Below, piece after piece: positions 7,804 through 48,525 of a DNA stretch of 50,214 bases. This DNA is from Bacteroidales bacterium. Its GTDB lineage: Bacteria; Bacteroidota; Bacteroidia; Bacteroidales; UBA1402. Position 1 is the stretch's first letter, and every line of letters starts with the position of its first letter. The notes below the pieces were generated by a model, which was not told where the DNA came from, ran no database searches, and saw only the letters and a program-made list of their open reading frames with translations. The stretch is from contig JAAYBL010000281.1 in assembly GCA_012718945.1 (NCBI GenBank), positions 1 through 50,214 of the forward strand, in the 5' to 3' direction. Made by a program: the position numbers and the translations under genes.

Positions 7804-9147
7804 TTAATTAGCCGTAAAATTAGAAATAATTTCCCTATCGTACAAATAATTACGATCCGAGGAAGTCTTCCAATCTCCAGTAAGGGTGTAACGGTTACCA
7901 TCATAGGAACCCGAGTACCCCCAGTTCATAATTAACGCGTGATTTGTCGTGGAAATGGACTCCGTTACCCTATTTTCAACATACGGAATTGGGGTATTAC
8001 TGTTACCGCTATAAACCCACTCATACGTGTATGTATACTTTGTTCTGTCTGCTTCATACCCATCGATGATCCAGGCATGACCAGTGTAGTGAGGAATGCG
8101 AATACCAAGAAACGTAGTATAGTACTTTCGGTTCGCTGAAACAATCACAGGTCGTCCACTATTGAGACTGCTCAAAACGGTGCTTGAATTGTACGATTGA
8201 CTACTACTGCCAACCCCCTGTCCGCTTAAAAAGCTTCTTAGATCACTCATGCTGGCGCCTGAGCCACCTTCCTCATAATCCATATCGATACTCATGCCGA
8301 CATAGCCAATCAGATAGGCAGACAAATCTGTGTTTGTTTCCCAGGTCCGGGTCGCCATGTTATCCCAAACTGTCGAGCCGAAGTTCGAGAAATTGAAGGA
8401 ATAACTGGAAGAGTTGTCACTGGAATACCCATAACAAACCCCACTTGCCGGTGCTGTGACGGGTTTACCCAATGCATAATGTAAGAAATAAGCCATTTGC
8501 GCACCGGCCACTGCCACACATCCGGCAGGACAACGGGTGGTGTAATTAGAGTTCGTATAGGGCACACAGCTATTCCATGGTGAAGACTGACCCCATTTTG
8601 TCTGAATCAGTGGGCCCACAGTGATTGGTGTCAGTGCTGTGGTTGTCACACCGACCAACTCCCAATACCCTTCTACATCATCAATGGGTAATGCATCTTT
8701 ATCGAGTATACGACGTGGGCTCTTGCCTGCCAGGTGGTCGGAATAGGCCTCAAATCGCAACCATACCTTGTAGTTGTCGCTAGTTTCATCAAAGTCTGTG
8801 GTCTGTTTTAGTTCATAAACCCGGTTGGCTAAGTCATCCAGCCAAATCACTAAACCGGGAGGCAGGTTGTCCAAATCCAGCGAACCTTGATCACCTTCGG
8901 CCAAGGTGACAGGCAGGCGCTTGTCCGCTGCAATCAATGACCAACCCATGTCATCTTGAAATGTAACCAAGTACATGAGGGTGTCTTCGGCATGTGTGAT
9001 TGGTTCAATAGACGCCACCAGTTTTGGTGCCACATTGGTGGATGGCACACTCAAAAGATCCAACAACGTTTGATAAGAGACATCAAAAGTGGACATCGGT
9101 GTTTCCGCTTTTTTTTGAGAAAGACCTGCATCGTCATCCAATGTCAC
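7804..9147 (-). CDS. C10 family cysteine peptidase (streptopain-like), signal peptide cut off by an amber codon
   Basis: Papain-like peptidase of clan CA, family C10 (SpeB, interpain). The open frame has 447 residues from a GTG at 9147. It has an N-terminal Spi-type propeptide region (about 20-165, with GWSLIAADKRLPVTLAEG) and a catalytic domain. Cys210 in RCPAGCVAVAGAQMAYF is the nucleophile, His357 in HYTGHAWIIDGYE is the general base, and NHALIMNWGYSG (Asn408, Trp409) gives the remaining conserved residues. All key residues are present. The frame continues upstream to an ATG at 9207 that would encode a lipoprotein signal peptide, but a TAG at 9163-9165 interrupts it. From the GTG the enzyme would stay in the cytoplasm, so the locus is probably a pseudogene, a regulated variant or a sequencing error. 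A good promoter precedes the ATG. Confidence 0.85.
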   Translation of the reverse strand: MTLDDDAGLSQKKAETPMSTFDVSYQTLLDLLSVPSTNVAPKLVASIEPITHAEDTLMYLVTFQDDMGWSLIAADKRLPVTLAEGDQGSLDLDNLPPGLVIWLDDLANRVYELKQTTDFDETSDNYKVWLRFEAYSDHLAGKSPRRILDKDALPIDDVEGYWELVGVTTTALTPITVGPLIQTKWGQSSPWNSCVPYTNSNYTTRCPAGCVAVAGAQMAYFLHYALGKPVTAPASGVCYGYSSDNSSSYSFNFSNFGSTVWDNMATRTWETNTDLSAYLIGYVGMSIDMDYEEGGSGASMSDLRSFLSGQGVGSSSQSYNSSTVLSSLNSGRPVIVSANRKYYTTFLGIRIPHYTGHAWIIDGYEADRTKYTYTYEWVYSGNSNTPIPYVENRVTESISTTNHALIMNWGYSGSYDGNRYTLTGDWKTSSDRNYLYDREIISNFTAN

Positions 9148-15794: not shown

Positions 15795-15990
15795 CGTTGT
15801 TGGTGTTTTTGATGAGTTGTTGATTATTTTTTTTCTTAGATTGGTATCGCCACTCACAACTGGCTTACAGTTTATTGAAGCGCTGTTGATATCGCAAAAA
15901 TACATTATTTCGGTTGTAACTGGCAAAAAACGACGATGAAAACGTAACGTTTTGCCGATATCTGCGTCTATTTATAAAACACCTATTACT

Positions 15991-16401
15991 ATGAAGAAGT
16001 TTGGACTACTTGCCGCCCTATTTGTCATGATGCTCTCCTGTACCTTAGAAGACACTCCTGACACATCCTGGAACGTTATCAATGTGGATGTTAAAAGCTC
16101 CGATTGGGTGGCCAAGGTTGATGGCGATGGCCTTTGTTTACATTATACGTGTGGCATTGACTTACCGGAATTGACCCCCTTTATTTACAACAACGGCATC
16201 GTTCAGGTTCACTACGATATGGATGGCGCCCAACAACTCCTGCCCTATGTCAGGCATTATCAAAACACAGCCGGCAACCTATGGACAACCACCATTGACT
16301 ACGATTACGAAGTTGGATTCATGACCCTCTACGTAACCAATTCCGACTTCGTCAATGAAAGGCCCAAGGACATGTCATTCCGCATCGTCTTATTGTGGTA
16401 A
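15991..16401 (+). CDS. Small unknown lipoprotein
   Basis: A 136-residue lipoprotein starting MKKFGLLAALFVMMLSC, a signal peptide with a good lipobox (Cys 17). The ATG at 15991 is preferred over the longer frame from 15952 for this reason. The mature part is acidic and beta-rich (NVINVDVKSSDWVAKVDGDG, WTTTIDYDYEVGFMTLYVTN), ending RIVLLW. I do not recognise the family, although the pattern WxxxxxxxYEVGFMxLYVTxSD looks like short surface lipoproteins found across Bacteroidota. It stands alone, followed 24 bases later by a strong terminator. Divergent from the lipoprotein at 15171-15794. Confidence 0.65.
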   Translation: MKKFGLLAALFVMMLSCTLEDTPDTSWNVINVDVKSSDWVAKVDGDGLCLHYTCGIDLPELTPFIYNNGIVQVHYDMDGAQQLLPYVRHYQNTAGNLWTTTIDYDYEVGFMTLYVTNSDFVNERPKDMSFRIVLLW

Positions 16402-16425
16402 ATAAATACCCTGTTTACTAGATAC

Positions 16426-16459
16426 AAAAAAGCGGCGCTCAACACGCCGCTTTCTTTTT
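16426..16459. terminator. Bidirectional Rho-independent terminator
   Basis: AGCGGCG (16431-16437) pairs with CGCCGCT (16445-16451) around a 7-base loop. An A-run precedes it and TTTCTTTTT follows, so it can end transcripts from both sides: the small lipoprotein (plus) and the xylose transporter (minus), which converge here. Confidence 0.85.
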
Positions 16460-16508
16460 GTCTATTCGCTACCGTCTGGGGGACGGGGTGATCAATCGAC
16501 AGGCACTT

Positions 16509-17900
16509 TTATTTCTTCTTCCAGACCTGCTCCAGTGCTTCCAGGGATTTACCCTTGGTTTCGGGAACCATCTTCCAGACGAAGATAGCAGACAGTACTG
16601 ACATGAGGCCGTAGAAGCCATAGGTCATGGCACCGCTGAATTCCATCATAGGCGGATAGGTAGAGGAAATCAAGTAGTTTGAAGCCCATTGAGCGGCGAC
16701 GGCAATGGCAACGGCTTGGCCACGAATCTTGTTGGGGAAGATTTCAGAAATCAGCACCCAGCAGATGGGGCCCCAGGACATCATGAAGGAAGCCGTGTAG
16801 ATGATGATGAACACCAGCGTGCTAATACCAATTACTTCGAAGTAGGAAAGGCCGGCAATGGCAAACATACCAATGGCCATGCCAATGGAACCCACAATCA
16901 ACAAGGGTTTACGTCCCCATTTGTCGACGGTCAGGATGGCAATGACGGTAAATACCACATTGACCAGCCCCATGACAATAGTCTGCAACATGGAGGCGTC
17001 CTTGGCTGCTCCCATACTTTCAAAAATACGGGGTGCATAATAAAGGGCCACATTGATGCCCACAAACTGTTGGAATACGGATAGCAGAATACCCACTATG
17101 ATGACCACTTTTCCGTAGGCAAACACGCCCACTTTTTCAACATCGGCGAAACTGGCTTTAATCTCCTCGAGAATTTTAACAGCCTTACTTTCTTGTCCGA
17201 TTACCTTGGTCAAGACGCGTTTGGCTTCAGCATCCTTATTGACCATAGTCAAGTAACGGGGCGTTTCAGGTACCAGGAAGAGGAACATCCCAAACAGAGC
17301 GGCCGGTATGGCTTCCGAGCCAAACATATAGCGCCAACCGATGGCATTGATCCATTCAACGGGTTGTCCTTTGGCTATACCCCAATTTACAAAATAGACA
17401 ACCAACATCCCGAAGATGATGGCAAACTGGTTGAACGAGACCAAACGTCCCCTGATGTCAGCCGGTGCAATCTCACCGATATACATGGGACAAACGGCAG
17501 AAGCCAAGCCAACGCCAATACCACCAATGATGCGGTACACGTTGAAGGCCCACAAAAGCCCCATGGAGGGTTCACCCACATTGAAAAACAGGAATTCCGG
17601 GTAAGCAGACCCTAAAGCTGAGACAAAGAAGAGTACAGAAGCGACTTGCAATGAGCGCTTGCGCCCGAGTCGTCGTGAAAAAAGGCCGGACAAAGCCCCA
17701 CCTATAATACAACCAATCAAGGCGCTCGATACCGTAGCTCCGTGGGCAAAAGAGCCCAAACCAAGGGAATTGATCAAATAACTCTGAAGCGCCTTTTCTG
17801 CGCCAGAAATCACGGCCGTGTCGTAACCAAACAGCAGACCGCCGAGGGTAGCAACAAGGGTAATACCAAAAATGTAGGGAGAATACGTGTGTTTAGTCAT
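16509..17900 (-). CDS. xylE: D-xylose:H+ symporter, XylE-type MFS sugar porter
   Basis: Inner-membrane major-facilitator sugar porter of 463 residues with 12 expected membrane helices. It is strikingly close to Escherichia coli XylE in the conserved blocks: YIFGITLVATLGGLLFGYD, YRIIGGIGVGLAS, SFNQFAIIFG, QQFVGINVALYYAP, MSWGPICWVLISEIFPN and VAAQW. Residues lining the XylE sugar and proton sites are kept: Phe24, Asp27 (proton site), Arg123, Gln158, Gln277, Gln278, Asn283, Trp381 and Gln404, by alignment to XylE 24, 27, 133, 168, 288, 289, 294, 392 and 415. This strongly supports D-xylose, although glucose porters share many of these residues. It is transcribed alone or with GH95 (70-base gap), and a promoter-like box precedes it. 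It would import xylose released by GH115/GH43 action. Confidence 0.93.
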   Translation of the reverse strand: MTKHTYSPYIFGITLVATLGGLLFGYDTAVISGAEKALQSYLINSLGLGSFAHGATVSSALIGCIIGGALSGLFSRRLGRKRSLQVASVLFFVSALGSAYPEFLFFNVGEPSMGLLWAFNVYRIIGGIGVGLASAVCPMYIGEIAPADIRGRLVSFNQFAIIFGMLVVYFVNWGIAKGQPVEWINAIGWRYMFGSEAIPAALFGMFLFLVPETPRYLTMVNKDAEAKRVLTKVIGQESKAVKILEEIKASFADVEKVGVFAYGKVVIIVGILLSVFQQFVGINVALYYAPRIFESMGAAKDASMLQTIVMGLVNVVFTVIAILTVDKWGRKPLLIVGSIGMAIGMFAIAGLSYFEVIGISTLVFIIIYTASFMMSWGPICWVLISEIFPNKIRGQAVAIAVAAQWASNYLISSTYPPMMEFSGAMTYGFYGLMSVLSAIFVWKMVPETKGKSLEALEQVWKKK

Positions 17901-17921
17901 GATGTATTGAATTAATCGGAA

Positions 17922-17930
17922 GCAAATGTA
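17922..17930 (-). promoter_or_regulatory. -7 promoter box of xylE
   Basis: TACATTTGC on the minus strand matches TAnnTTTG and lies 21 bases before the ATG. No TTTG is present at the usual distance upstream, so the -33 element is weak or an activator is needed. Confidence 0.45.
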
Positions 17931-17969
17931 CAGTGATTGTAGGGAGATTCGTGCGTAAAAAGGGGGGAT

Positions 17970-20480
17970 TTATTGACGTTTTGGCGCTTCTGCTTTCAAT
18001 ACATAGGTTCTTCCGGCTTTGGTCGGAAGGTCGTACAGAAAGGTTGCTGGCAGGCTGACCGGGTTTAATGAAGCCTCAGGGGCTATCAAGGCAGGCTTGA
18101 CGTCAGGTGTCTTAAAGAACGGATTGGGGTTGCTTCCCTGGGCTTCAGTCATGCCTTTAACCGATACCAAACGATTGGGCACCCTGAGTCGACAGTTACC
18201 ACCCAGCTTGGACGTGAGGGTAATGGTTTCCACCTGACCGTTTTTCCAGGTAAAACTGACTTCAAATCCACCATAGGCCCTTAATCCGCTGACGGAACCT
18301 GTTGCCCAATCATCTGGCAAGGCCGGTAAGAGGTGCAAGCTGCCATCGTGGCATTGCATCAACATTTCAGCGATACCAGCTGTGCACCCGAAGTTACCGT
18401 CAATTTGAAAGGGCGGGTGGGCATCAAACAGGTTGGGGTAAGTACCACCGTTACGTCCACCCACCGGATCCACCAGGGTCAGCTGGTCGGTGATGAGCTT
18501 GCGGGCTCTGTTGCCGTCCAGGAGCCTGGCCCAGGTGTTGACCTTCCAACCCATGGACCAACCGGTTGATACGTCTCCCCGGTGTACCAGGCTGGTACGG
18601 GCGGCATCAAACAGTTCGGGAGTACGATAGGGGGAAATCTGGTTGCCTGGGTGCAGACCGTACAGATGGGAAATGTGCCGGTGTTTGTCGTTGGGGTTGT
18701 CCCAGTCGTACAGCCATTCCTGCAACTGTCCGTGCTTGCCCACCTGCATGGGAGGTAACTTGTCAAGCAATCGTTGGAGGTTGGCCACTTCAGCAGCCGG
18801 TTTGTTTAGCAGGTTGGCCGCTGCAATGGTCTTGGTAAACAGGTCGAACACCAATTGGTTGTCCATGGTGGTGCCTGCCGTCAGAGCAGAAGCGTGGCCT
18901 TTAGGGGTATTCTCAGGAGAGATGGAAGGGCTGACCACCAGCCAACCTTTGCCGGGTTCTTCAATCAGAAAGTCTTCAAAGAAAGCGGAGGCCGAACGCA
19001 ACACTGGGTAGATGGTTGCCAGATAGGTTTTGTCACCACCGTACAAGTATTTTTCCCAGAGGTGCTGGCTCAACCAGGCACCACCCATGGGCCATTGACC
19101 GGCGTTGGCGAAATCAACCACACCAGTGATACGCCAGAGGTCGGTATTATGGTGGGCGACCCAACCGTCACAGCCGTACAACACGCGAGCTGTTTCCTTG
19201 CCGGTTTCTGATAGATCTTTGACCAGTTGTATGAGGGGTTCGTGCATGTCGGCCAGGTTGCATTTCTCAGCCGGCCAATAGTTCATCTCCGTGTTGATGT
19301 TGATGGTGTACTTGCTATCCCAGGCTGGGTTGACACTGCCGTTCCACAAGCCCTGGAGGTTGGCGGGTTGTCCGCCTGGTTGGGAACTGGCGATGAGCAG
19401 GTAGCGACCAAACTGAAAATAGAGGCTCACCAAAGCCGGATCGTTCGACTGGGCAAAGGTGCGTACCCTTTCGTCAGTAGGGCGTTGGGCAGCTGCTGTG
19501 TTACCCAGGTCTAGCTTGACACGGTTGAAATACGCCTGATAGGCGTCGAGATGGCGTTGATAGAGTTTCTTCCAGGTCAAACGGGTGGCAGCGTCCAGGG
19601 GAGCCTGGCAACGGGCAGCCTCATCGGCCGAAATGTCGGCGTAGTTCACCACGTTGGTGGCCATGGACAGGTAAATGAGGACTTCATCAGCACCGGTCAC
19701 TTTCAAGCCTTCGTTTGCTTGTGTCACCTGGCCCTTAATCGACTTGACCACTGCCCTGGCGTTGAGTTTCACCTGGCCGGTTACGCCTTCGTGGGTACCG
19801 GATAGGGCTGTCATTTCCAACATATTCGTACCTAGCACCTTGTTCGATTGCTTCAGCGGTCCGTCAAATCCCACATTAAACGTCAAAGCCCCCCTTCGGT
19901 CGGCTGTAAGCCGAACAACGATGACCTGGTCGGGTATAGAGGCCAGCACCTCACGGGTATACCGCACGCCATTTACCGAATACGTGCAGGTAAACAAGGC
20001 TTTTTCCAGATCCAGGCGGCGTTGATAATCCGTATAGGCTTCATGTCCCTCAAACTGAAGGTTAAGGAAGCCGGCGTTCTGAAACTTGGAACCATGCAGG
20101 CGTTTGGCTGTCAGGTAACGGTTGGACAGCTGATCGGCCCTCCTGAAGTCACCGTCCTGTATGGAACGACGAATGGAATCCAGTCCAATGACGCCGTCTG
20201 GATTGTCGTTGCGCGAGGGACCACCCGACCAAAAAGTAGCTTCGTTCAGTTGTAGTTGTTCCTTGGCGGGATCGCCCGTAATCATGGCGGCAAGGCGGCC
20301 GTTGCCGATGGGCAGGGCTTCATTCCAAACAGTAGCCGGTTTGGGGTACCACAAGGTGGTAGCGCCATTAGGAATGGACGGTTCGACGTCAACACGCATA
20401 GCCGAACCGTTGTTGGCCGATACTGGTGCGCTAAACATGGCGGATAACAAACCAATCCAAATGATGGTGTTTATTTTCAT
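17970..20480 (-). CDS. GH95 family glycoside hydrolase (alpha-L-fucosidase type)
   Basis: Secreted 836-residue enzyme with a signal peptide (MKINTIIWIGLLSAMFSAPVSA). The N-terminal beta-domain (about 40-270) opens with WYPKPATVWNEALPIGNGRLAAM, split here as typical of GH95. The (alpha/alpha)6 catalytic domain spans about 300-730. Conserved catalytic blocks are present: the paired Asn394/Asn396 in TININTEMNYWPAE (equivalent to Bifidobacterium AfcA Asn421/Asn423), Glu523 in SPSISPENTP (general acid), and the NLFDAHPPFQIDGNFG block with the remaining Asp. Family activities are inverting 1,2-alpha-L-fucosidase, and in plant-biomass loci also alpha-L-galactosidase on xylan or pectin side chains. 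It ends without a sorting domain. Its 5' leader and first codons are duplicated at 25165-25276. Confidence 0.92.
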   Translation of the reverse strand: MKINTIIWIGLLSAMFSAPVSANNGSAMRVDVEPSIPNGATTLWYPKPATVWNEALPIGNGRLAAMITGDPAKEQLQLNEATFWSGGPSRNDNPDGVIGLDSIRRSIQDGDFRRADQLSNRYLTAKRLHGSKFQNAGFLNLQFEGHEAYTDYQRRLDLEKALFTCTYSVNGVRYTREVLASIPDQVIVVRLTADRRGALTFNVGFDGPLKQSNKVLGTNMLEMTALSGTHEGVTGQVKLNARAVVKSIKGQVTQANEGLKVTGADEVLIYLSMATNVVNYADISADEAARCQAPLDAATRLTWKKLYQRHLDAYQAYFNRVKLDLGNTAAAQRPTDERVRTFAQSNDPALVSLYFQFGRYLLIASSQPGGQPANLQGLWNGSVNPAWDSKYTININTEMNYWPAEKCNLADMHEPLIQLVKDLSETGKETARVLYGCDGWVAHHNTDLWRITGVVDFANAGQWPMGGAWLSQHLWEKYLYGGDKTYLATIYPVLRSASAFFEDFLIEEPGKGWLVVSPSISPENTPKGHASALTAGTTMDNQLVFDLFTKTIAAANLLNKPAAEVANLQRLLDKLPPMQVGKHGQLQEWLYDWDNPNDKHRHISHLYGLHPGNQISPYRTPELFDAARTSLVHRGDVSTGWSMGWKVNTWARLLDGNRARKLITDQLTLVDPVGGRNGGTYPNLFDAHPPFQIDGNFGCTAGIAEMLMQCHDGSLHLLPALPDDWATGSVSGLRAYGGFEVSFTWKNGQVETITLTSKLGGNCRLRVPNRLVSVKGMTEAQGSNPNPFFKTPDVKPALIAPEASLNPVSLPATFLYDLPTKAGRTYVLKAEAPKRQ

Positions 20481-20560
20481 AGTGAGGCGTTTTGTTCATG
20501 GTAATCTTGTGTGCAAAAATAGCAGAATTTGCGGTACCAAACTGTTGACTATGATTGATA
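20461..20560 (-). repeat. GH95 leader, copy A of a 100-bp duplication
   Basis: This stretch covers the first codons, untranslated leader and promoter of GH95. It aligns over about 100 bases, at roughly 85 to 90 percent identity by eye, with 25171-25276. The shared part runs from ATGATGGTGTT (first codons, reversed) to CTGTTGACTATGA. The copy at 25171 carries a 4-base insertion near the promoter. Confidence 0.75.
20513..20541 (-). promoter_or_regulatory. Promoter-like site of GH95
   Basis: On the minus strand TATTTTTGC (20521-20513) matches the -7 consensus. TTTG (20541-20538) lies 16 bases upstream, shorter than the usual 19 to 21. The -7 box is about 33 bases before the ATG. In copy B of the repeat the box has one changed base (AATTTTTGC). 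Confidence 0.45.
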
Positions 20561-20619
20561 GACTGTTGATTTGGATAACAATGGCCTATTTATCGTCAAA
20601 TCAATGAAAGGGGCCATTG

Positions 20620-20665
20620 AAAAAAAAGAAAAAGTAAGCGAGAAGCCATACATATGACTTCTCGC
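20620..20665 (-). terminator. Rho-independent terminator after the PL11 gene
   Basis: GCGAGAAG (20638-20645) pairs with CTTCTCGC (20658-20665). On the minus strand the stem is followed by a long T-rich tail (the A-run at 20620-20633). It ends the rhamnogalacturonan lyase transcript about 200 bases after its stop codon and separates it from GH95. Confidence 0.8.
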
Positions 20666-20683
20666 ACTGAGAAAAGTTTGAAC

Positions 20684-20716
20684 GTTACCTGCCTACGTTC
20701 AAATTGAACCGAACAA
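20684..20716. repeat. 33-bp element, copy 1
   Basis: GTTACCTGCCTAC followed by GTTCAAATTGAACCGAACAA. 28 of the 33 bases match 28077-28109. The centre is palindromic (GTTCAA-A-TTGAAC). The copy lies between the PL11 stop and its terminator. The rest of the gap 20481-20867 holds the GH95 promoter region, the terminator and a short alternate-frame coding tail. Confidence 0.55.
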
Positions 20717-20791
20717 AAAACGGTATAAATCAGACGGAATCACGTCGTTTTGACACCAACCCGGCATACGGATTTTCAGGTTGAACTTTTT

Positions 20792-20866
20792 TTACTGCGC
20801 CGGGGCGACCGTGATTGTCACCTTTCCATTCCTGGGATAACCGGATACATGTTTTAACGCGAGACA
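20792..20866 (-). other. Short coding-like tail after the PL11 stop, in another frame
   Basis: Directly after the PL11 stop, a frame offset from PL11 reads LKHVSGYPRNGKVTITV and then APAQ before a TAA at 20794-20792. The alternation of polar and hydrophobic residues looks like a protein C-terminus, not random sequence. It may be the remains of an older PL11 or neighbour C-terminal end shifted out of frame. Confidence 0.3.
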
Positions 20867-20867
20867 C

Positions 20868-23036
20868 CTACACCGCCACTTTTTTCACACAAGTGCCCGA
20901 TGCGGTCGTGATCTTGACAAGCATCAGGTTGACACCCTGCGGAATGGCTGCGTCGTATTCCGTATGGTTGATCGCTCCCGCTTTGAAAAGCGCCTGCCCT
21001 GAAATTGAATAAACGGTAACAGACGTGATGGTTTCGGCGGCAACGACGAACAGCCTGCCTGAGGCCGTATACACGTTGGCGACAGCCTTCACAGCCTTGT
21101 CAAGACCGGTTTCCGTGCCGTACTTCACGGTGGAAATGGCAGGTTGCCGAATGCCGTTCAGGCCGCCGCCGATGTAAAACCCGAGGTGCGGAGGCTGGTT
21201 GTAGGCTGCGTTCTGCCAGGCCACGGCCAACCTGTAAACCGGATCGTGCATCAGGGTGAAAAGCCTGTACGGCGATGCCGCGGTTGTTGTGTAGACCCTT
21301 AGCTGACCGGAGTCGGCCGTCGTCCAAAGGATCAGCTCCTCCCTCCAGTCGCCAAAGAGGTCGGCCGTCAGGTTGGGCGTCTTTTTGGTACTGTTGCACG
21401 ACGAAACACCGGATGGCGAAAACAAGGTGTTGGTACCTGATCCTGTCCATTTTGTTATGACGGTGCCGTCAAGCAATTCATCCTGGAGGTCGCCGTCCCA
21501 GTAGATCCTGAAATTCACGGAGGGACGCTTGTTTGAAATGGAGACGCCTTTACACGTAAAAGTGCCTGTACCCGTCGCGGTAGACCACGTTTCAAGCCCG
21601 GGATACCGTGCATCGATGTCGGCGCACATCCCCCGGCCTATGTCTGCGCCCGTATAAGCCCCCCAAAGCACCTTGCCGGTGGCCGCCTCGTGCAATTCAT
21701 ACCCATACGCACTGGCCTTGTCTTCATGCACCACCCAAACTTCCAGACCGGGGTTGTCGGGGTCAATATCGGACAAGTGCATCGCATCGCCGTGACCAAG
21801 ACCGGTACGGTACAACAGCTTGCCGTCGTCGTCAAACGCACAGGCACCGTAAATGATTTCATCCTTGCCGTCAGCATCCACATCGGCGACACTCAAATTA
21901 TGATTGCCCTGACCGTAGGCGCCCACGCCGGCCACCGTGCCTGAATCGTAATACCAACGCTGCACGAGCGACTTATTGACAACGTTATAGGTTGTCAAGG
22001 TCGTTTTTTGATAGTAACCGCGGCAGAAGACAGCCGAAGGACGAACCCCGTCGAGGTAGGCGACACAGGAAAGAAACCTGTCGGAACGGTTGGCGTAACT
22101 GTCGCCCCAATCAGACACCTTTCCACGTAAAGGGTTGTATTTCACGGTATGCAGCTCGGCTCCCGTTTTGCCGTCAAACAAGGTAAGGTATTCAGGACCG
22201 GTCTGCACCGTACCCAACATGTTCGACCCGCTGGTCGCCGAATAGGTAAAGTTCCTGTAATCGGCCTTAGGATTGTCGCCGACCATGATCACGTCGTTTC
22301 CAAGGCCGTCCACCGTACCGGGCGCCGTCTTGCAGATTAATTCAGCCAGGCCGTCACCATCAAAATCATACACCAGGAACTGCGTATAATGAGCGCCGGC
22401 TCTGATGTTCCTACCAAGATCGATGCGCCACAATTGCGTTCCGTCCAGTTTGTAGGCATCGATGTATACGTTGCCTGTAATGCCGTAATAAGAATTATCC
22501 TGAGAGTTTGATGGATCCCATTTTACAACGATCTCATAAACGCCGTCCCCGTCCAGATCCCCGACACTGCAATCATTGGGCGAATAGCTGTATGGCTGTC
22601 CGTTTGGATAAGAGGCATCCGGTGTCTTGCCGACACTGCCGGTCTGGTTGGGTGCTGTGATGCCGCCTTTAGGACGGTTCAACTGGATGGTCTTGTATTG
22701 GTTGGCCCAGGGTGTGACACTGCCGGATGCTTCCCCGCAAGGCACACCGTTACAAATGGGCACGACCTTGTACACACTGGTCAACGTGCCGCCCGCATCC
22801 AGGTAGTTGGTACGGTCTGTCATCGGTGTTGCCGTAATCAACTTGTCATCACGGTAGATGTTGAAGCCGGTAGACAGATCGTCGGTGCCCAGGAAACGCC
22901 AGCTTAAAAACACGCCGTTGCTGACTTTGACAGCCACCACCCCCCGGTCAAGGTATTCCATCTGCCTGGTCGCGGCGTATGACAACAAGGTTCCGAACGA
23001 TAAAAAAACAACAACCAACGGAGAAAACCGTTTCAT
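20868..23036 (-). CDS. PL11 rhamnogalacturonan lyase with type IX-like C-terminal domain
   Basis: Secreted 722-residue polysaccharide lyase that cleaves rhamnogalacturonan I backbones by beta-elimination, as Bacillus YesW and YesX do. The ATG at 23036 gives a signal peptide (MKRFSPLVVVFLSFGTLLSYAA); a TTG 9 bases upstream is not needed. An N-terminal beta-sandwich (about 25-130, MEYLDRGVVAVKVSNGVFLSW) is followed by an eight-bladed propeller (about 135-620). The calcium-binding repeats of PL11 are visible: NDCSVGDLDGDGVYEIVVKWDP, split here, VYDFDGDGLAELICKTAPGT, VADVDADGKDEIIYGAC and LFGDWREELILW. The tail (VTVYSISGQALFKAG..., ending KKVAV) resembles a type IX sorting domain. The stop is TAG. 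Base composition looks more GC-rich than in the FAS1 operon. It stands alone, with its own promoter and terminator. Confidence 0.93.
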   Translation of the reverse strand: MKRFSPLVVVFLSFGTLLSYAATRQMEYLDRGVVAVKVSNGVFLSWRFLGTDDLSTGFNIYRDDKLITATPMTDRTNYLDAGGTLTSVYKVVPICNGVPCGEASGSVTPWANQYKTIQLNRPKGGITAPNQTGSVGKTPDASYPNGQPYSYSPNDCSVGDLDGDGVYEIVVKWDPSNSQDNSYYGITGNVYIDAYKLDGTQLWRIDLGRNIRAGAHYTQFLVYDFDGDGLAELICKTAPGTVDGLGNDVIMVGDNPKADYRNFTYSATSGSNMLGTVQTGPEYLTLFDGKTGAELHTVKYNPLRGKVSDWGDSYANRSDRFLSCVAYLDGVRPSAVFCRGYYQKTTLTTYNVVNKSLVQRWYYDSGTVAGVGAYGQGNHNLSVADVDADGKDEIIYGACAFDDDGKLLYRTGLGHGDAMHLSDIDPDNPGLEVWVVHEDKASAYGYELHEAATGKVLWGAYTGADIGRGMCADIDARYPGLETWSTATGTGTFTCKGVSISNKRPSVNFRIYWDGDLQDELLDGTVITKWTGSGTNTLFSPSGVSSCNSTKKTPNLTADLFGDWREELILWTTADSGQLRVYTTTAASPYRLFTLMHDPVYRLAVAWQNAAYNQPPHLGFYIGGGLNGIRQPAISTVKYGTETGLDKAVKAVANVYTASGRLFVVAAETITSVTVYSISGQALFKAGAINHTEYDAAIPQGVNLMLVKITTASGTCVKKVAV

Positions 23037-23062
23037 GTGCGCCAATTAATGTGTTAGAGCCC

Positions 23063-23090
23063 CAAAGGTACTCAAATCCTCGAAAACAAA
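23063..23090 (-). promoter_or_regulatory. Promoter-like site of the PL11 gene
   Basis: On the minus strand TACCTTTG (23070-23063) matches TAnnTTTG; TTTG (23090-23087) lies 16 bases upstream, the same short spacing as in the GH95 promoter. The -7 box is 26 bases before the ATG. Confidence 0.45.
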
Positions 23091-23164
23091 GACGGGGTGC
23101 GTGCAGAACAGGTACCACAACATCCTGCGGACGCATACATAGCTTTGACAATCAACACAAATAA

Positions 23165-23383
23165 GTCAGCTACAATCAATCGGCCCACATTGTGAAATAC
23201 CTGATTGACAACTACGGCATTGAAAAATTGAAAGCCTTGTGGGCAACCGGCATGACCCATTTCGAAAACATAACCGCATTGAGTTTCCACGACGTATTGA
23301 AAACAATCGAAACGAACGTGCTCCTTCAACACCCCCACCCCATCGCACTTGACTGGAAGGCGTTTGAGAAGGCATGTTACTAA
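23165..23383 (+). pseudogene. C-terminal fragment of a metallopeptidase-like gene
   Basis: After an in-frame stop at 23162-23164 the frame reads VSYNQSAHIVKYLIDNYG, then IEKLKALWATG and, near the end, ALDWKAFEKACY before a stop. The pattern (a Tyr-rich stretch, YLIDxYGxEKLKxLW, then a short helix and a DWxxF tail) is typical of the C-terminal end of gluzincin-like peptidase-MA proteins of Bacteroidota. There is no start, no zinc motif (HExxH) and no upstream part, so it is a relic of about 70 codons. It lies right behind the PL11 promoter on the opposite strand. The family assignment is from pattern memory and is uncertain. Confidence 0.35.
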
Positions 23384-23480
23384 ACCGGCCGGATTTCGCA
23401 CCACCGGAATAGCTGATGCGCTTCTTTGGCAATTTATCGCTCTGAGGAAACAAGGGGTAAAACAACAGGCGGTTGCAGCT

Positions 23481-23511
23481 TGAAACAAACAGCGATGTGG
23501 CTGAAACAAAC
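23481..23511. repeat. Direct repeat TGAAACAAAC, 21 bases apart
   Basis: TGAAACAAAC occurs at 23481-23490 and 23502-23511, an offset of 21 bases or two helical turns, a spacing used by some response-regulator operators. The stretch 23384-23617 holds no gene; this pair is the only structure I see in it. Confidence 0.35.
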
Positions 23512-23617
23512 GTTCTAGCAACGCCATGGATACAATTAATAAGAACGACATTGGCCGGGCTGAACGACACCTAATTGGCTGACAGTTCCAGCCTCAACCG
23601 TTCCAAAATCGTGTTTG

Positions 23618-24256
23618 TCATCGTAGTGCTTGTTTTTGTGATGCATTGTGTGCGTGCGAATGCCCCATACCCCTCACCGTCGCCCGTAGGATCATTCTGT
23701 GAAACGGTTTGATCAATGTGAAGTAGAACCGGCCCAGGCTGTTATTGAACTGCACCTGGGTGGTGACGCTGAAGGAGGGGGTCATGACAGGAATACGGGC
23801 GATGTGTCCGTCGGGGTGATTATCAGGCGGGGTATCATCGGACCGATCGTTGCCTTGTTGGTCAAACCGCAGAATGACCCTGAAGTTCAGATGGCTGTCG
23901 TCGGCGCCAAGAAGGAGGGCGTGAGGAGTTTTGGCGTAGACGTGGAAGAGGCCCAGTCGGTCACCGGGTTGGATGGGGGCCGGAATAGGGGAATTGACGG
24001 TCCGGGTTGTCCCAATGTCAGCGGGGTCTCCACCGAGGGAAGCATCCGGGGTTGCCGTAACAACCTTATGGGTTGACGGCTTCAATCCGACGAGGCAAAC
24101 GAGCTTGTCGCGCAGGGACATCAGGCTGTCGGCCCAGGTTGGGCCTGAGGAGACGAAGCGACGGCCGAGGGCGTCGATGTCGCAGGAACTGTAGCCTGGC
24201 AGACGGCCGCTGAAAGTGTCGGCGTAATGAATAACGGAAAGATGGAACGCGTTCAT
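23618..24256 (-). CDS. DUF2867 family protein
   Basis: A 212-residue protein with the DUF2867 signature blocks. It starts with HYADTFSGRLPGYSS, then ADSLMSLRDKLVCLVGLK (about 55-70), GDRLGLFHVYAKTPHALLLG (about 110-130), NFRVILRFDQQ and near the end FNNSLGRFYFTLIKPFHRM. The family is of unknown function and is cytoplasmic; proteins of this type occur singly or beside oxidoreductases. The ATG at 24256 was chosen; a start at 24286 would add 10 residues. There is no signal peptide. It is not part of any sugar operon here and is GC-richer than its AT-rich surroundings, which suggests that it sits in an island of different origin. The frame is intact. Confidence 0.72.
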   Translation of the reverse strand: MNAFHLSVIHYADTFSGRLPGYSSCDIDALGRRFVSSGPTWADSLMSLRDKLVCLVGLKPSTHKVVTATPDASLGGDPADIGTTRTVNSPIPAPIQPGDRLGLFHVYAKTPHALLLGADDSHLNFRVILRFDQQGNDRSDDTPPDNHPDGHIARIPVMTPSFSVTTQVQFNNSLGRFYFTLIKPFHRMILRATVRGMGHSHAHNASQKQALR

Positions 24257-24366
24257 GAGGCCTGGTTTACCGAGGGTGAAAAGCAAAGACTGACAACAAA
24301 GTTAGCCATCGGTTTCAATTACTCAAAGCATCGTTCGGCTCTCTGCCATTTTATTCAAATCGTGGC

Positions 24367-24582
24367 TTGGCAAAAGACGCGTTGATGACAGGTTTCTCAA
24401 TCCAATTATCGCCGGCCTGCGGGATGGTGGTGCTGATGCGCGAAGTTACGGGCTGTGAACCCAGGATGTGGGGGCCCAGCATAACCGGTTCTGGACGCTA
24501 CCATTACCTATTTGAACGACCGGTATGGAAAAATCGCACTATCTTGAGCTTCGCGCCTATCACACACTATGCGGCGTTGTGA
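24367..24582 (+). pseudogene. DUF1801 gene fragment
   Basis: The frame contains LMREVTGCEPRMWGPSITGS and then GRYHYLFERP, a close match to the conserved core of DUF1801 proteins (EVTGEEPKMWGPSIVGFGSYHY in the usual form, split here by family consensus). The N-terminal half of the domain and the later GFSPRK region are not recognisable; after RYHY the sequence runs into unrelated residues and a stop. It looks like a decayed copy of a small gene of the iron-sulfur/YdhG-type DUF1801 family, of unknown function. Confidence 0.5.
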
Positions 24583-24810
24583 AAGCGGTCAGGGTCTTTA
24601 CGATAACTACAATCGGCAAGACGGCATATACTTTGTCGTTATAGGGTACACGAACTTGGCTTAGAAAAATTCTCCGGTTTTTTGCCATTAATTCCCCAAA
24701 AGCGACTGAAATGCCATTTTTGGGAGTATGATATATGAAAATCAAGATCGTAAATAAAATGTATCCAATTGCTTTGACTGTTCAATGAAATCATATCACT
24801 AATAAGATTA

Positions 24811-24845
24811 GGTGTATATTTGCAGTCGTACTGCAAATATGCACC
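24811..24845. other. 15-bp hairpin with 5-base loop, possible insertion-sequence end
   Basis: GGTGTATATTTGCAG (24811-24825) pairs with CTGCAAATATGCACC (24831-24845) with a single G-T pair and a 5-base loop (TCGTA). No T-run follows on either strand. Its size, and the gap of a few bases between the two arms, resemble joined insertion-sequence ends. TATATTTGC within it also matches a -7 promoter box on the plus strand. Confidence 0.5.
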
Positions 24846-24910
24846 TTGATTCTGTTTTTGCGAATCCTATCGAATCTCAATAAAATCAATCGTGTCCTTA
24901 TCTTCTGAGG

Positions 24911-25117
24911 TTAACCCAGTTGATTTTTGCCAAAACATTGCTGAGGAATCTTTGTTGAAAATCGTCTTGCTCCGTTAAAAGTGTCGGCACGCAGGATTGA
25001 GTCCTCAATCCGATTGAAGCCAATGGAATCATATATCCGATTCAAAATCAACAATGGCCGGTTTAAAAGAACGCTGTCTATAGTGTCAAGAACGCCGTCA
25101 GTAATTAACCGTAACAA
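24911..25117 (-). pseudogene. Possible transposase fragment (IS1634/IS4-like)
   Basis: The frame reads LDTIDSVLLNRPLLIL, NRIYDSIGFNRIEDSILR and then diverges and stops. The core resembles the N-terminal third of IS1634/IS4-type transposases (...LGKIYDxIGFNxIxDELFRHLV...). After ILR the expected LVIxR...PxSK block is missing in this frame; the other two frames do not restore it. No DDE residues or intact ends are found. The 24600-25164 stretch is AT-rich and otherwise without genes. Assignment is by pattern memory only. Confidence 0.3.
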
Positions 25118-25164
25118 CCTCGTTCTATGACACTTGGATTATTTTCCCTAAAAAGTTGTCGAAG

Positions 25165-25191
25165 TCAGGAAATGATGGTGTTAATTTTCAT
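25165..25191 (-). pseudogene. Relic of a GH95-like gene start, eight codons
   Basis: From the ATG at 25191 the frame reads MKINTIIS and stops at TGA (25167-25165). GH95 at 20480 starts MKINTIIW. The same leader precedes both. This is the fossil 5' end of a second copy of the gene, now cut off. Confidence 0.6.
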
Positions 25192-25276
25192 GGTGAGGCG
25201 TTTTGTTCAGGGTAATCTTGTGTTTGAGCAAAAATTGCAGAATACGCATTATCAATCTGTTGACTATGAATGATAA
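25171..25276 (-). repeat. GH95 leader, copy B of a 100-bp duplication
   Basis: Partner of 20461-20560. It covers the first codons, leader and promoter region. It lies immediately after the stop of the GH43 gene at 25285. The -7 box is AATTTTTGC instead of TATTTTTGC. Confidence 0.75.
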
Positions 25277-25284
25277 CTGTGTAG

Positions 25285-28068
25285 TTATTGCTTGATCAGC
25301 AAACGGTGCGCATTTTCTTGGGGTGTCTCAAGGTCAAGCACATAAAATCCTGATGGCAGGGTCGCCCCAATACCTTGGTCGCTGACCACGCCTCTTTCCA
25401 TCAAACGCCCTTGCAGGTCAACAATCCGATACGTCGTCGCTTGTTGAATAGACTCAGAGGCTATAAAAAAGACGTCACGGCTGGGATTGGGATAAACGAC
25501 GACCTGTTGCGTCGTTCGTTGAACGGTATGGCTGACCTCATCCGGGTAAAAACGCAGACTTTTCAAGTAAACCGCATTTTTCGACCCCTTGAATCGCAGG
25601 TACAGATCATGTTGGCCGGATGTGGGGGGTATGACAGCCTTAACGGAAGTCCAGGCGTCCACGCCTCCGGTCGGGAGCACGACCAGTTCGGCTATTTTCG
25701 TACCCGACCGTTCGATGTCATCCAGCCATACCTCAACGGTTCCGCCGACAGCGGCGGCCGCGACCAGTTCTATGCCGATCGCCTTTCGGTCGTTCCAACC
25801 GACCTGTACACCACCAAGCATACACCAGCCACCCAAGGCCGAGGTATTCGTGAGTGATTTAACCGAAGCCTTGGTCACGACCTCCACCCCATGATACGTA
25901 TCCCTGCCGCCCAAGGAGAGATCGGAAAACCCATCCCTGTAGGCAAAGCGGTCAAAATGAGCGGTACAACCTTTGGCAAACAACCCCATACTGTTTCCCA
26001 CCCACGAATTGTAGTTGACTTGGCCTTTGTCCAGGGCCGTCACATCCATGGCAACGCCTATTTGGGTCCAGGTCAAACCGTCCGCGCTGTAAAACCCGGC
26101 GACAAGGTGTTCGGCACGCTCCATCTTTAACCAAACGGTATCACCTACGGTGTTAGGCACTTCGTAGGTTTTGTCTGAAAAACGAAAAGCAATCACCCTG
26201 GAGTTTGCGGCGTATGTACTGGTCAATCGGACAGATTGGCTCATCGTGCCGTTGGTCAGGCAAAGGCCTGCCTCATCTCCCCGCTTTGTCGCCTTTACGG
26301 CCACTTTGGTGGTCATCGAGTAGAAATGACCGGCATCCCGTTGCAGCAGATGGCAACTGTCGGTACCAGGTAGCAAGGCGATCCAACCCGGCTGTTGAAC
26401 AAGAGAGTAAGCGGCTGCGGCTTTCCGGTTTAAACTATACCAGTCCAAAGCAAGGGTGGATTGATTGAATTCATCCGAGCGAGGAAGCCGCCAGGCGTAG
26501 TCGTTCTTTGACAAGGCCGGCTTTGTCATGGGAAGCGTGGTGGGCGCCTTGCCCGTCGGTTTGCCGCTTTCATCCCAAACCATCTGGATCAGAAGCCCTT
26601 GACGTCCTTTTCCTTCCCAACTGTCCGATCCCAGCCCTTCATAGGCGTGCGCGATGGTCCACCAGGTACCATCGTCCAACGAAAAGGGTTGAGCTATGTG
26701 GTTGGGGCTTCTAAAGTAAACAGCAGGGTCAGTCACCGATTCGAAGAAATTACCCAAGGCTTCCCAACGGGTGGAGTCGGCTGTCAAGGTCCTGGATCTC
26801 AACACGTACTGACCGCCGCCCACATTGCCGGCAATGAAATAGTAGTACCACCCGTCGCGTTTACACATCACCGGCCCTTCGGCCCAACTGTATTTCTTAT
26901 CGGAATTGACCCAATCCATATTGATGACGCTGCCGGTCAAATGACCATCGGTACCGATACGCTGTATTCTGTTCACAAATTGCCCGGGTTTGATCAGCAT
27001 ATAGGGTGTTCCATCGTCGTCCACAAAAATGGAATTGTCGTACCCCACAGGGCCTGTATCCGCTGTGGTTTTCACTTTGACGGGAGCCGACCAGGGACCA
27101 AGTGGCGTGGTTGCCTTGCAAAAATATTGACCTCCACCGGCCGTATTTGAAAAATAATACCAATAGGCGTCGTAGAAATAGGTCAACGTGCCTCCCCAGG
27201 TTCCAGCTGCCGGTGCATCGCTCAGCAAGCCTGACCAGGAGGCTGGGACCACCCTGGAAATCAACTTCCAATGCAACAAATCCTTCGAATGATAAATGGG
27301 AGCATACGGCGTGAAATGGAAACTGGAGCTGGAGGTGTAGAAATCATCGCCAACCCGCAGTAAGGTCGGGTCAGGATGATCACCCGGCAACACAGGGTTG
27401 ACATATGACTCCACCATGGTATATAACAACTGCGGATTCTGGCCGGGTTGTTGGCTCTCAAGGTTCTCGACGGTGTACTGGTAACCGGCCAAACAAAAGG
27501 CGATCTTGTCCAAATCAAATCCGTCTTCCCGTGACGCCCATTGGAAAACATACGGGATGCCGGTGTCCACCACACTAAACGAAACAGGCTCCGACTGATT
27601 ATAAAAGGCCGAAACGTTCAACCACTTCCAGGTATTGATACCGGCCGAACCTTGATAGCCAACCACATCGTTTTTTGCCACATACCCATTGGGAACCACC
27701 CCGTTAACCATGCACCAGTCGGCATCAGCCGCCGGGTTCAATACGCCAAACCGTTTGGCAAAAAAGAAACTGTCATCGCCGTAGTTATTGTTTCCCACTC
27801 TGAAACGAGCGTATAAGTGATAGACGCCGACCTCTGGAAAGCGAACCGTAAAGGTCAGCAAAGCCTTTGTGTCACCTGGGGTGTAACCCGCTTTATCGAT
27901 GGTGGGATACACATACTGCACTACGCCTTCTGTCCCTATGGCCAGGCTGCTTCCCAGGCTGGCAGCCTCAGCCTCGATCACGACGGGTTTAAAATTCGCA
28001 TAACTGAGGGTCTTTAGGACCAATGCCAGGAGTATCGTCAGGAGAAATTTATTCATGAGTTGGGACAT
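25285..28068 (-). CDS. GH43 family glycoside hydrolase with carbohydrate-binding domains and type IX sorting domain
   Basis: Secreted enzyme of 927 residues (923 if the second ATG, 28056, is used) with a signal peptide ending LSYA. Order of parts: a beta-sandwich binding domain (about 25-195, KPVVIEAEAASLG... VGVYHLYARFRVG), the GH43 propeller (about 222-510), a concanavalin-like C-terminal domain of the beta-xylosidase type (about 525-730, RLPRSDEFNQSTLALDWYSL), a CBM6-like domain (about 755-845, GGTVEVWLDDIE), and a type A type IX sorting domain (VYPNPSRDVFFI, ending LLIKQ). Catalytic acids are Asp233 (PGDHPDPTLLR), Asp344 (VGYDNSIFVDDDG) and Glu397 (SWAEGPVMCKRDG). The architecture fits xylosidase or arabinofuranosidase activity on xylan. 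It follows the operon terminator at 28137, so it probably has its own promoter. Confidence 0.92.
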   Translation of the reverse strand: MSQLMNKFLLTILLALVLKTLSYANFKPVVIEAEAASLGSSLAIGTEGVVQYVYPTIDKAGYTPGDTKALLTFTVRFPEVGVYHLYARFRVGNNNYGDDSFFFAKRFGVLNPAADADWCMVNGVVPNGYVAKNDVVGYQGSAGINTWKWLNVSAFYNQSEPVSFSVVDTGIPYVFQWASREDGFDLDKIAFCLAGYQYTVENLESQQPGQNPQLLYTMVESYVNPVLPGDHPDPTLLRVGDDFYTSSSSFHFTPYAPIYHSKDLLHWKLISRVVPASWSGLLSDAPAAGTWGGTLTYFYDAYWYYFSNTAGGGQYFCKATTPLGPWSAPVKVKTTADTGPVGYDNSIFVDDDGTPYMLIKPGQFVNRIQRIGTDGHLTGSVINMDWVNSDKKYSWAEGPVMCKRDGWYYYFIAGNVGGGQYVLRSRTLTADSTRWEALGNFFESVTDPAVYFRSPNHIAQPFSLDDGTWWTIAHAYEGLGSDSWEGKGRQGLLIQMVWDESGKPTGKAPTTLPMTKPALSKNDYAWRLPRSDEFNQSTLALDWYSLNRKAAAAYSLVQQPGWIALLPGTDSCHLLQRDAGHFYSMTTKVAVKATKRGDEAGLCLTNGTMSQSVRLTSTYAANSRVIAFRFSDKTYEVPNTVGDTVWLKMERAEHLVAGFYSADGLTWTQIGVAMDVTALDKGQVNYNSWVGNSMGLFAKGCTAHFDRFAYRDGFSDLSLGGRDTYHGVEVVTKASVKSLTNTSALGGWCMLGGVQVGWNDRKAIGIELVAAAAVGGTVEVWLDDIERSGTKIAELVVLPTGGVDAWTSVKAVIPPTSGQHDLYLRFKGSKNAVYLKSLRFYPDEVSHTVQRTTQQVVVYPNPSRDVFFIASESIQQATTYRIVDLQGRLMERGVVSDQGIGATLPSGFYVLDLETPQENAHRLLIKQ

Positions 28069-28076
28069 TGATGATA

Positions 28077-28109
28077 GTTACCTGCCTACTCTCAAATTGA
28101 GTCGGACAA
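28077..28109. repeat. 33-bp element, copy 2, upstream of the GH43 start
   Basis: 28 of 33 bases match 20684-20716. The palindromic centre is kept with a compensating change (CTCAA-A-TTGAG). On the minus strand it holds TCAATTTG, one base from the -7 consensus, about 25 bases before the GH43 ATG. Confidence 0.5.
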
Positions 28110-28136
28110 TATGACCAGACAGACACTTACGTAATT

Positions 28137-28173
28137 AAAAAGCAAGTGGAGGCTCAGGGAAACCTCCACTTGC
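28137..28173 (-). terminator. Rho-independent terminator of the FAS1/SusCD operon
   Basis: GCAAGTGGAGG (28142-28152) pairs perfectly over 11 bases with CCTCCACTTGC (28163-28173). On the minus strand it is followed by TTTTTAATT. It lies 32 bases after the stop of the last operon gene. Confidence 0.88.
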
Positions 28174-28204
28174 AGCATTGATTAGACAAAATCAGCGATG
28201 CGGC

Positions 28205-31200
28205 TTATTTCATCATGATCTTCTGAACATCAACGGTGCCGTTGTCATACACCGTCTTCACAATATTCAAGCCCTTGACCAGGCGAGGTACGCGAATACC
28301 CTGAATGTTGTAGTAATAGACTTCTTTGACAGCGCCCTTGACTGCTTCAACATCCTTCAGACCGACATAGGTATAACCGTCAGCCTTGTTGACCATGGAG
28401 ATCGCGGGATCGCCCCAGAACAAGGAAGGCGTATAACCGGTCTTCACATTCGTGGAAACACCCAACGTAAACGAACCTTCGGTAATCTTCACATTTTTGA
28501 AGGAGGTATTGAGCGCGGAGGGTAAACCCCAACCAGCAACCACGAAAGGAGTAGTCAAGGTATCTGAACCAACAATAAGGTAGCAATACAAAACATCCTT
28601 GATATCATCTGTCGTCCAACCGCTGGGTAATGCGGCCGTTCTTGTCCTCATATGGATATTGAAAACACCTGCAGGCATACCCGTTACCGTTTGTTCAAAG
28701 GAATCGACGGCTGTATTGAAAATGGATGCATACGTGTCAACCACAGGATTGGATCCGGAAGCTGTTGCACCAAGACCACCACCAGTAATATTAGCGCTGG
28801 TCACCCATCCTGGGAAAGTATTCATATCCAGATTATTGACCGTATAGGTGCTATAGAAGTTGGGGTTCTTCATGAAGCAGGTCACATCAAGGCTGTCAAC
28901 CAGGGTGGAGTCTTGCCAGCTTTCACCAAACTTCAGCGTGCCAAGAGCGATGTTGCTGTGCAGCTGATCCTTAATCCGCCTGTTCAGGTCGTTGGCGATG
29001 GCGTCATCGTCTGTCATGGCATTTTGGGCAGGGATAAGTTTGGTTGAATCAACACCAATCGTTTGTGCCAACTTAACGGCCAACCTCAGACGATAGGTCA
29101 TAGCAGGAATGGCAGTGCCGACATAGTTTTTCATCAAACTGGTGTAGAAACTCAGTGAGTCATTGGCCACTTTCAACGAGTCATCGTTGGTCAACGCTAA
29201 GCCCTTGTACAAATCAACCACCGTCTGCAACTTAGTATAAGCATCCAGCGATGCGTACTTGGTAGCAGCAAAGCGGTTCAACACAGCATTAGCTGAGTCA
29301 GTGTTCACATAATAAGTAGCTATGCGAGCAAAATGAGCATCGACCAAAGCCCTATGGGCATCCATAGCAGCAGCAGCGTCATTCAATTGATCGGCCGCAG
29401 CCACATATTCGCTGGGGGCTGTGTAAGTGACCGTTGTGTTGGCAGCAATCAGGGTTGTCAAGGCTGTCTTGGCTTCACCATCATACATGGATGAATCGGC
29501 AGCGCTCAACGCCGTATTGGCCACCTTAAGGGCTGTCGACAACAAGCCTTTGTATTTGGCAGCAGAGGATGGTACACTGTAAATGGTAAGACCACCGATA
29601 ACAGCAGCATCCCAGCCACGGTAACCAACAAAGTCAAGGACATAATCACCTTCTTCCGAAACATAGACGGAATAGTCATGGAAGGCAGCTCCTGAAACAA
29701 CGACGTTGCTGTTGTCATTTGCACCATGGGTACCATCATTACAGTTGAAAGCAGAACCAATATTGCGTTCAGCAAAGAGTTCCTTGGTGCGTGTCGTGTC
29801 GGTAATAAGCATATCAAAGACCACTTTGTTGTTCATGGAACCCGTATTCCAATAGGCGCTGTAGAAAGAGACACTGTAGCGGCCTGGTTTAAAATGGAGA
29901 CGGCTTTCGGGATAGGTACCATACATTAAGTGCACGGTGTCTTTATCCCTGGCAGAATGATAGAAACCAGCTTCAATATCTCCACCATCCAGGAAATGCA
30001 TCAAACGTGCACCAGCCACACCAGTGGATCCTCCATTGACGATAGCACCATCATTGGTTGTCAAACGCTTCCAACCAGCAGGAACACTAGCAGAAGTGGT
30101 GGTGGCTTTAGTCCATGGAACCATTAAAGTATCCACTTCAGCAGCTGCCGATGAACCAACGGTGAAATAGATCACATCGTTGTTTTCAGCCGGAATGCCA
30201 ATCTCGCTATACACCTCAGTCAATGTCACACTGTAGTCACCTTCACCAAGAACAGCTCCCTCAGGAACGGTAAATGTCAAAGTCTTCGAGAAACCGGTTT
30301 CTTGCAATTGAAGAGCCAAGGAACCGTTCACAACGCCAGTACCGCTGATGGGGCCTACGATGGTTCCCACAACGGAAGCACAGTCAATGTTTTTGTTGTA
30401 GTTAAAGGCAAATGTGCGGGTGTTAACCGGCATATCGAACGATTCATTCTCAGGCAAGGTAGACTTGAGCAACGGAGGATAGAACTGAGATGAAGAAGCC
30501 GACAAGTTGATGTCGTAGGTTACACCTTCGTCTACAAAATCCAACACGCGCATATCAGAAGTAGCATCCCAGGAGAAAGGACGTTGTTTTGCCGTGTACA
30601 ACAAAGCAGCTTCCGGGTCGGTGGGATTAGTGAAAGACACCGTAATATCAGCGGCATCAGTAGCAGACAACACATCGTTTTCGAGGAAAATGAAGAATCC
30701 ACCCTCTTGTACTTCAACAGACAGTACACTTAAAGCAACGCCGGCTTTTTTTACTGTCACACATTCTTTCGGAAGTACGGCAATGCCATAATCCTCACCT
30801 TCGCGTAAAGCAGCTGCGTTAACGGCATACCCGAAATCCACCTTCAACATATCTTCAAAAAAGCTGATACCGTTGATACTGGACTTGTCGATAGAGATAT
30901 CGTCAATATTGTATGTACCAGGACTGTACACATTCAAGCAAAGGAAATGCTTGAGGTTTAAGACAGCCGTATCACCTTTGAGGGTTTTGTAATAGTTGGA
31001 TTGAACAGAATCAGCCGTATAGAAAAAGACCATACTCATCTTTTTCCACGTATCGGCTTCAAAACCAGACAAGGTATAGCCAAAGGCTGTGTTGTCTACG
31101 CCTACATAGGGCACATCGGCATCCTCTTCACCCACCATCAAGCGAGCTTGAATGTTGGAGGTTGCGTTTTGGGCACCACCTTCAATGGAATAGGTCTTAT

Positions 31201-47895: not shown

Positions 47896-48510
47896 TTAGT
47901 TGGAATACACGCTCTCAGTAGGACCTAGATAGGAAGGCTTTAATCCACCACAATCCACCACGATTTTTTGAATCACAATGGCTGGCGAAAGGGGAGCCAA
48001 TACCAAACGGTGTTTGTTATCCTTGGTTGCTGGAACGGTCAGCGAAACAACCATCTCATTGATGCGGTTTTTTTGCCATTGAGAAATCCGTCCTTCACTG
48101 ACACCACCGTTCATGTTGACGTGAACCGGCTTTTGACCGTCGAAAGCCAGTGTAAACAGCATGCCTTCGTGACCATCAAAGTTAAGGGTGGGTGTCAGGT
48201 AGACATGCACCTTGACCTGATTAACCTGGGTATTGAGTTGCATACGGTATTCCAGGCTGGCCCCTTTGGGATCAATCGTGGTTGGTAGGAGCGTGAGCGC
48301 CGACAGGGTCTTCCCTGAGTGGGGAATAACCTGCCAGGTTGTACCCTTGACTGGTGTGGCCTGGTAAAAGTGCTCGGCTTCCATGGAAACAACACTGTCT
48401 GCCGACTCCTTAAATACATAGCCGTTGAGCTGTGCCACAAGCACTTGCAAGGGCAGTAGCATCACTAAGAGGTTGGTCAGTATGTGTATGGTATGGTGTG
48501 GTGTTTTCAT
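47896..48510 (-). CDS. GH115 C-terminal domain encoded as a separate gene
   Basis: A 204-residue protein with its own signal peptide (MKTPHHTIHILTNLLVMLLPLQ, ending VLVAQ; split here). The rest matches the beta-rich C-terminal domain that normally ends GH115 alpha-glucuronidases: VFKESADSVVSMEAEHFYQ near 32, WQVIPHSGKTLSALTLLP, ASLEYRMQL and HVYLTPTLNFDGHEGM, then IVIQKIVVDCGGLKPSYLGP. The domain helps dimerise and shape the active site in known GH115 structures. Here it is cut off from the catalytic gene, with 15 bases and a stop between, and the two frames are in phase. The hydrophobic leader makes an independent exported polypeptide more likely than a read-through. It may rebuild the enzyme by non-covalent assembly. 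Confidence 0.75.
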   Translation of the reverse strand: MKTPHHTIHILTNLLVMLLPLQVLVAQLNGYVFKESADSVVSMEAEHFYQATPVKGTTWQVIPHSGKTLSALTLLPTTIDPKGASLEYRMQLNTQVNQVKVHVYLTPTLNFDGHEGMLFTLAFDGQKPVHVNMNGGVSEGRISQWQKNRINEMVVSLTVPATKDNKHRLVLAPLSPAIVIQKIVVDCGGLKPSYLGPTESVYSN

Positions 48511-48525
48511 GGTCGGGCGGTGGGT

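Follow-up and report, generated by a model that had tools for sequence, protein, structure and literature searches.

Promoters of sigma ABfr, the primary sigma factor of Bacteroidota, have the form TTTG / TAnnTTTG (PMC7366714), in which TAnnTTTG represents the -7 consensus for the main sigma factor of Bacteroides and the -33 TTTG has been reported for B. fragilis and was not found in Flavobacterium (PMC7366714). The second described system to which our locus can be compared is the GH95-GH43-RGL11 type of pectin/rhamnogalacturonan utilisation locus of Bacteroidota. The contig studied here, analysed as a single window of 50,214 nucleotides, likewise carries SusC-like, SusD-like, GH95, GH43, RGL11, GH115 and MFS sugar transporter genes, but its exact gene order is absent from the fetched relatives, among which the neighbours of GH95 vary. 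Two side observations concern the same contig. The GH115 gene (47896-50121, minus strand) appears to be split into two adjacent ORFs, one with the catalytic part (48526-50121) and one with the C-terminal domain (47896-48510), perhaps through a frameshift or sequencing error, and a peptidase C10 with a Spi inhibitor domain (7804-9147, minus strand) adjoins the polysaccharide locus.

A GH95 promoter, leader and start present twice

A block holding the promoter, leader and start codon of GH95 is present twice in this locus, and the second copy has no gene attached. The features that bear on this duplication are as follows.

17970-20480, minus strand: intact GH95 gene, 836 aa, with complete N, catalytic and C domains (Pfam PF22124, E 5.6e-183; PF14498; PF21307)
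20459-20566, minus strand: copy 1, the promoter and leader of the intact GH95 gene with its first codons (alignment)
20684-20716, minus strand: second repeat, copy a, a palindromic element between RGL11 and GH95, 116 nt ahead of copy 1 (self-comparison)
20868-23045, minus strand: rhamnogalacturonan lyase family 11 (RGL11) gene, directly upstream of GH95 (PF21348, E 1.1e-212)
23157-23383, plus strand: remnant of a Peptidase_MA_2 C-terminus, without a start (PF13485, E 1.1e-6)
23618-24286, minus strand: DUF2867 gene (PF11066, E 5.7e-24)
24424-24594, plus strand: remnant of a broken DUF1801-type gene (MWGPSITGSGRYHY...), matching an ORF of a relative at 42% over 57 aa with E 5.0e-9
24660-25169, no strand: AT-rich stretch, GC 37-39% where the surroundings have about 54%, in which no coding remnant could be recognised (composition, frame scans)
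25170-25280, minus strand: copy 2, an orphan leader and start, MKINTIIS then stop (alignment with copy 1)
25285-28068, minus strand: intact GH43 gene with a CBM6-like domain and a secretion tail, ending 4 nt before copy 2 (PF04616, E 1e-42)
28077-28109, minus strand: second repeat, copy b, immediately ahead of the start of GH43 (self-comparison)

The two copies lie in the same orientation about 4.7 kb apart, and are 108-111 nt long and 14% diverged. Their alignment spans 112 columns, is 86% identical and has a single 4-nt insertion, which lies in copy 2 (BLAST E = 3.6e-29 within the window). The recurrence of about 100 bases proposed in the first-pass annotation is thus real, and the homologous stretch is slightly longer than was claimed there. 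The local alignment score of 143 compares with at most 33 in 30 dinucleotide-preserving shuffles of the whole window, and the similarity is much longer than promoter motifs, to which it would have been confined had the annotation been mistaken. No third copy exists in the genome, where raising the E limit to 10 adds just words of 14-15 nt. The repeat pair is genuine.

The intact GH95 protein begins MKINTIIW, whereas copy 2 reads ATG AAA ATT AAC ACC ATC ATT TCC TGA, that is, MKINTIIS and a stop, and reading both frames confirmed this earlier observation. The first seven codons differ by one synonymous change, the homology runs out one base into codon 8, and copy 2, whose frame stops there, stays open no further than eight codons. 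Copy 2 was also correctly placed directly after the GH43 gene, with a 4-nt gap from the GH43 stop codon. The start of GH43 itself is probably the ATG at 28056 (MNKFLLTILL...) and not 28068, which would give a normal signal peptide.

Upstream of GH95, copy 1 resembles the sigma ABfr promoters. It has a TAnnTTTG -7 box, TATTTTTG, at about 20514-20521, the sole such box there and about 34 nt ahead of the GH95 ATG, together with an upstream TTTG, although the spacing of 16 nt between this TTTG and the box is short. Copy 2 differs from these promoters and is the only one of the two to depart from consensus in its -7 and -33 elements: the first T of TAnnTTTG is lost, with AATTTTTG where copy 1 has TATTTTTG; ATTG stands at the -33-like position where copy 1 has TTTG; and four extra bases (TCAA) lie between the -7 box and the leader, near the expected transcription start. 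The promoter of copy 2 therefore looks damaged. Judged by the promoter consensus, copy 2 would be the changed copy.

Surroundings of copy 2 and a second repeat

The 2.1 kb beside copy 2 is a decay zone with the Peptidase_MA_2 and DUF1801 remnants listed above, the relative's ORF that matches the latter being itself a DUF1801 protein (PF08818, E 1.2e-11). The minus strand downstream of copy 2 is without a gene for 880 nt. DUF2867, which comes next, carries a promoter-like TTTG-N19-TAACTTTG of its own and is for this reason independent of the orphan leader. No GH95 remnant past codon 7 was found in 24287-25169 (best tblastn E 0.14, with a DNA alignment score equal to that of shuffled controls), and tblastn with the main proteins of the window, local DNA alignment and frame-wise profile scans likewise detected no GH95 body above chance after the orphan start. 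A hairpin of 17 pairs with a 3-nt loop does exist, as first annotated, but at 24810-24846, about 320 bp from the repeat and inside the AT-rich stretch, where no gene was identified; it could be an orphan terminator. The copy 2 region matches no Rfam family, and a known RNA element was rejected as a candidate, the one match being a sub-threshold chance hit at this hairpin.

Self-comparison yielded one other repeat above shuffles, a 33-nt element that is 85% identical between 20684-20716, where it precedes a terminator-like hairpin (20638-20665), and 28077-28109. Its score within 15900-28300 was 41, where 60 shuffled self-comparisons reached at most 35, but over the whole 50-kb window its BLAST E was 0.014, matched by an unrelated pair. 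Its core occurs in two copies only in the genome. Both copies form an inverted repeat around a constant AGGCAGGTA core, and in the stem, as read by eye, one position changes from C-G to A-T and another becomes a mismatch. The order and orientation of the elements relative to the two leaders are identical. At one place we find the element, 116 nt, the leader and GH95; at the other, the element, the GH43 gene, the leader and nothing. The middles and upstream flanks of the two blocks had no similarity detectable by sequence comparison. We consider the second repeat suggestive, not secure; as an element in its own right it may be an operator or a remnant of duplication. Since both pieces of the RGL11-GH95 intergenic region bracket the GH43 gene, they suggest an old block duplication in which different genes were kept and lost, and not the scar of an insertion sequence. 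On this reading of the sequence, the orphan leader may be one part of a longer duplicated block, of which the element upstream of GH43 is another.

Comparison with relatives did not supply an intact counterpart. Copy 2 is absent from three genomes of the same genus, the leader has no copy and no syntenic locus in 59 relatives (those three and 56 further), and neither the leader nor the AT-rich stretch nor any of GH95, GH43 and RGL11 led to a syntenic locus when searched against the relatives. The check first suggested, a look for the intact second gene in related strains, gave no locus with that arrangement among these 59. A search with copy 1 in 60 genomes (its own and the 59 relatives) gave a sole match of 29 nt in a relative (E 9e-4). 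The closest protein relatives have 65% (GH95), 49% (GH43) and 69% (RGL11) identity, and their contexts differ. Of the 104 GH95 loci fetched, 11 have GH43 next to GH95, three of these (L047, L055, L068) with GH43 directly upstream on the same strand; RGL11 is directly upstream in one, and more than one GH95 is found close together in three. GH43-GH95 adjacency and clustered GH95 genes thus occur elsewhere, making the arrangements needed for a duplication ordinary, although in none of the 104 loci is such a history directly visible. In the literature, a search for scars of duplication in loci of this kind returned nothing beyond general papers.

Origin of the orphan leader

We consider it likely that the orphan leader is a duplication relic without function within a pectin/rhamnogalacturonan utilisation locus. 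A block consisting of the element, the leader and the GH95 start would have been duplicated long ago in the same order both times, one copy of the block having GH43 between element and leader and the other just 116 bp. In one copy of the block, we infer, deletion or decay would then have removed the GH95 body, while the other kept GH95, and the core positions of the orphan promoter, freed from selection, may have drifted. That copy 2 is the scar of a lost second GH95, as first proposed, is upheld insofar as a scar of duplication and loss fits best; that a whole second GH95 was involved is plausible but unproven, no codons past the seventh surviving and no relative keeping the locus. We put the chance that a complete second GH95 gene once stood at copy 2 at about even: the body may have been lost, or the copying may just as well have left it out.

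In the main alternative, template switching or illegitimate recombination duplicated the promoter-leader-start piece alone, and no second GH95 body ever existed, or else the piece came from another gene and was captured by GH95. This overlaps with our preferred reading, since either way copy 2 is an inert duplicate, and competes only with its lost-gene part. The homology breaks off sharply within codon 8, past which neither protein nor DNA comparison shows any GH95 residue, and relatives at 52-65% protein identity conserve neither the GH95 leader nor the signal peptide, as a partial copy or a captured leader would have it. However, the colinear second repeat suggests a block larger than the leader alone, and neutral decay with deletion would erase a gene body just as well, so that we regard a partial copy as a tenable but tentative explanation.

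It is unlikely that the direct repeats around the 4.7-kb RGL11/DUF2867 segment record an insertion sequence or the single-crossover integration of a circular molecule. They do flank 20567-25169, with its broken genes and AT-rich part, but a duplicated target of 110 bp would be unusual for transposons, and 14% divergence of the repeats speaks against a recent event. Pfam scans of the frames in 24287-25290 on both strands, and of a plus-strand frame in 23046-23617, contained no transposase; the frames scanned held no integrase either, and no terminal inverted repeats lie near either boundary. On these scans the transposase idea was rejected, including the earlier suggestion of a possible transposase fragment beside copy 2, and the removal of the second gene by an insertion sequence, also suggested earlier, has no support.

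Still less probable is a leader that remains functional, driving a short RNA or binding a regulator of the locus as a decoy or second operator. The first-pass annotation had considered the leader better conserved than expected and possibly active, and the final 54 nt of the repeat (leader and first codons) are indeed 94% identical between copies, compared with 82% in the ungapped upstream part. This difference (3 mismatches in 54 against 8 in 48 aligned columns) is not significant by Fisher's exact test (P = 0.11), with a boundary picked post hoc, and selection on the leader was rejected on this basis. The changes at -7 and -33 and the 4-nt insertion near the expected start site also count against activity, as does the lack of an Rfam family or a conserved relative, and we conclude that a function is unlikely. 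Very improbable in our view is the proposal that the paired elements, the AGGCAGGTA-core palindrome and the leader, are putative operators of one regulator co-controlling GH43 and GH95, with the orphan leader still at work as a second control site through which both genes are coupled. A similarity limited to common promoter motifs, or due to chance or faulty assembly, can be dismissed: the fragmented state of the draft (316 contigs) is the one point in its favour, the alignment score far exceeds all shuffles, the genome offers no third copy, and the longest exact word common to both copies is 17 nt, which makes an assembly collision unlikely.

Copy 2 is in our reading a genuine but ordinary relic of duplication that probably has no function. 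Its interest is local only. It shows the reshuffling of a Bacteroidota polysaccharide utilisation locus, in which intergenic pieces outlast the genes they served and mark past duplications, and it serves as a practical warning that a promoter and start codon may match well and still be orphaned. Among known systems, the nearest is the relic of a partial gene duplication, described as a 5'-end duplicate or truncated pseudogene. Homology to the 5' end of GH95 is present, seven codons included, but there is no coding remnant beyond the start; as no part of the gene body survives, a pseudogene in the strict sense is not demonstrated. As in such relics, the promoter, leader and first codons are here duplicated in direct orientation within one locus, and the second copy is bodiless and stops at once.
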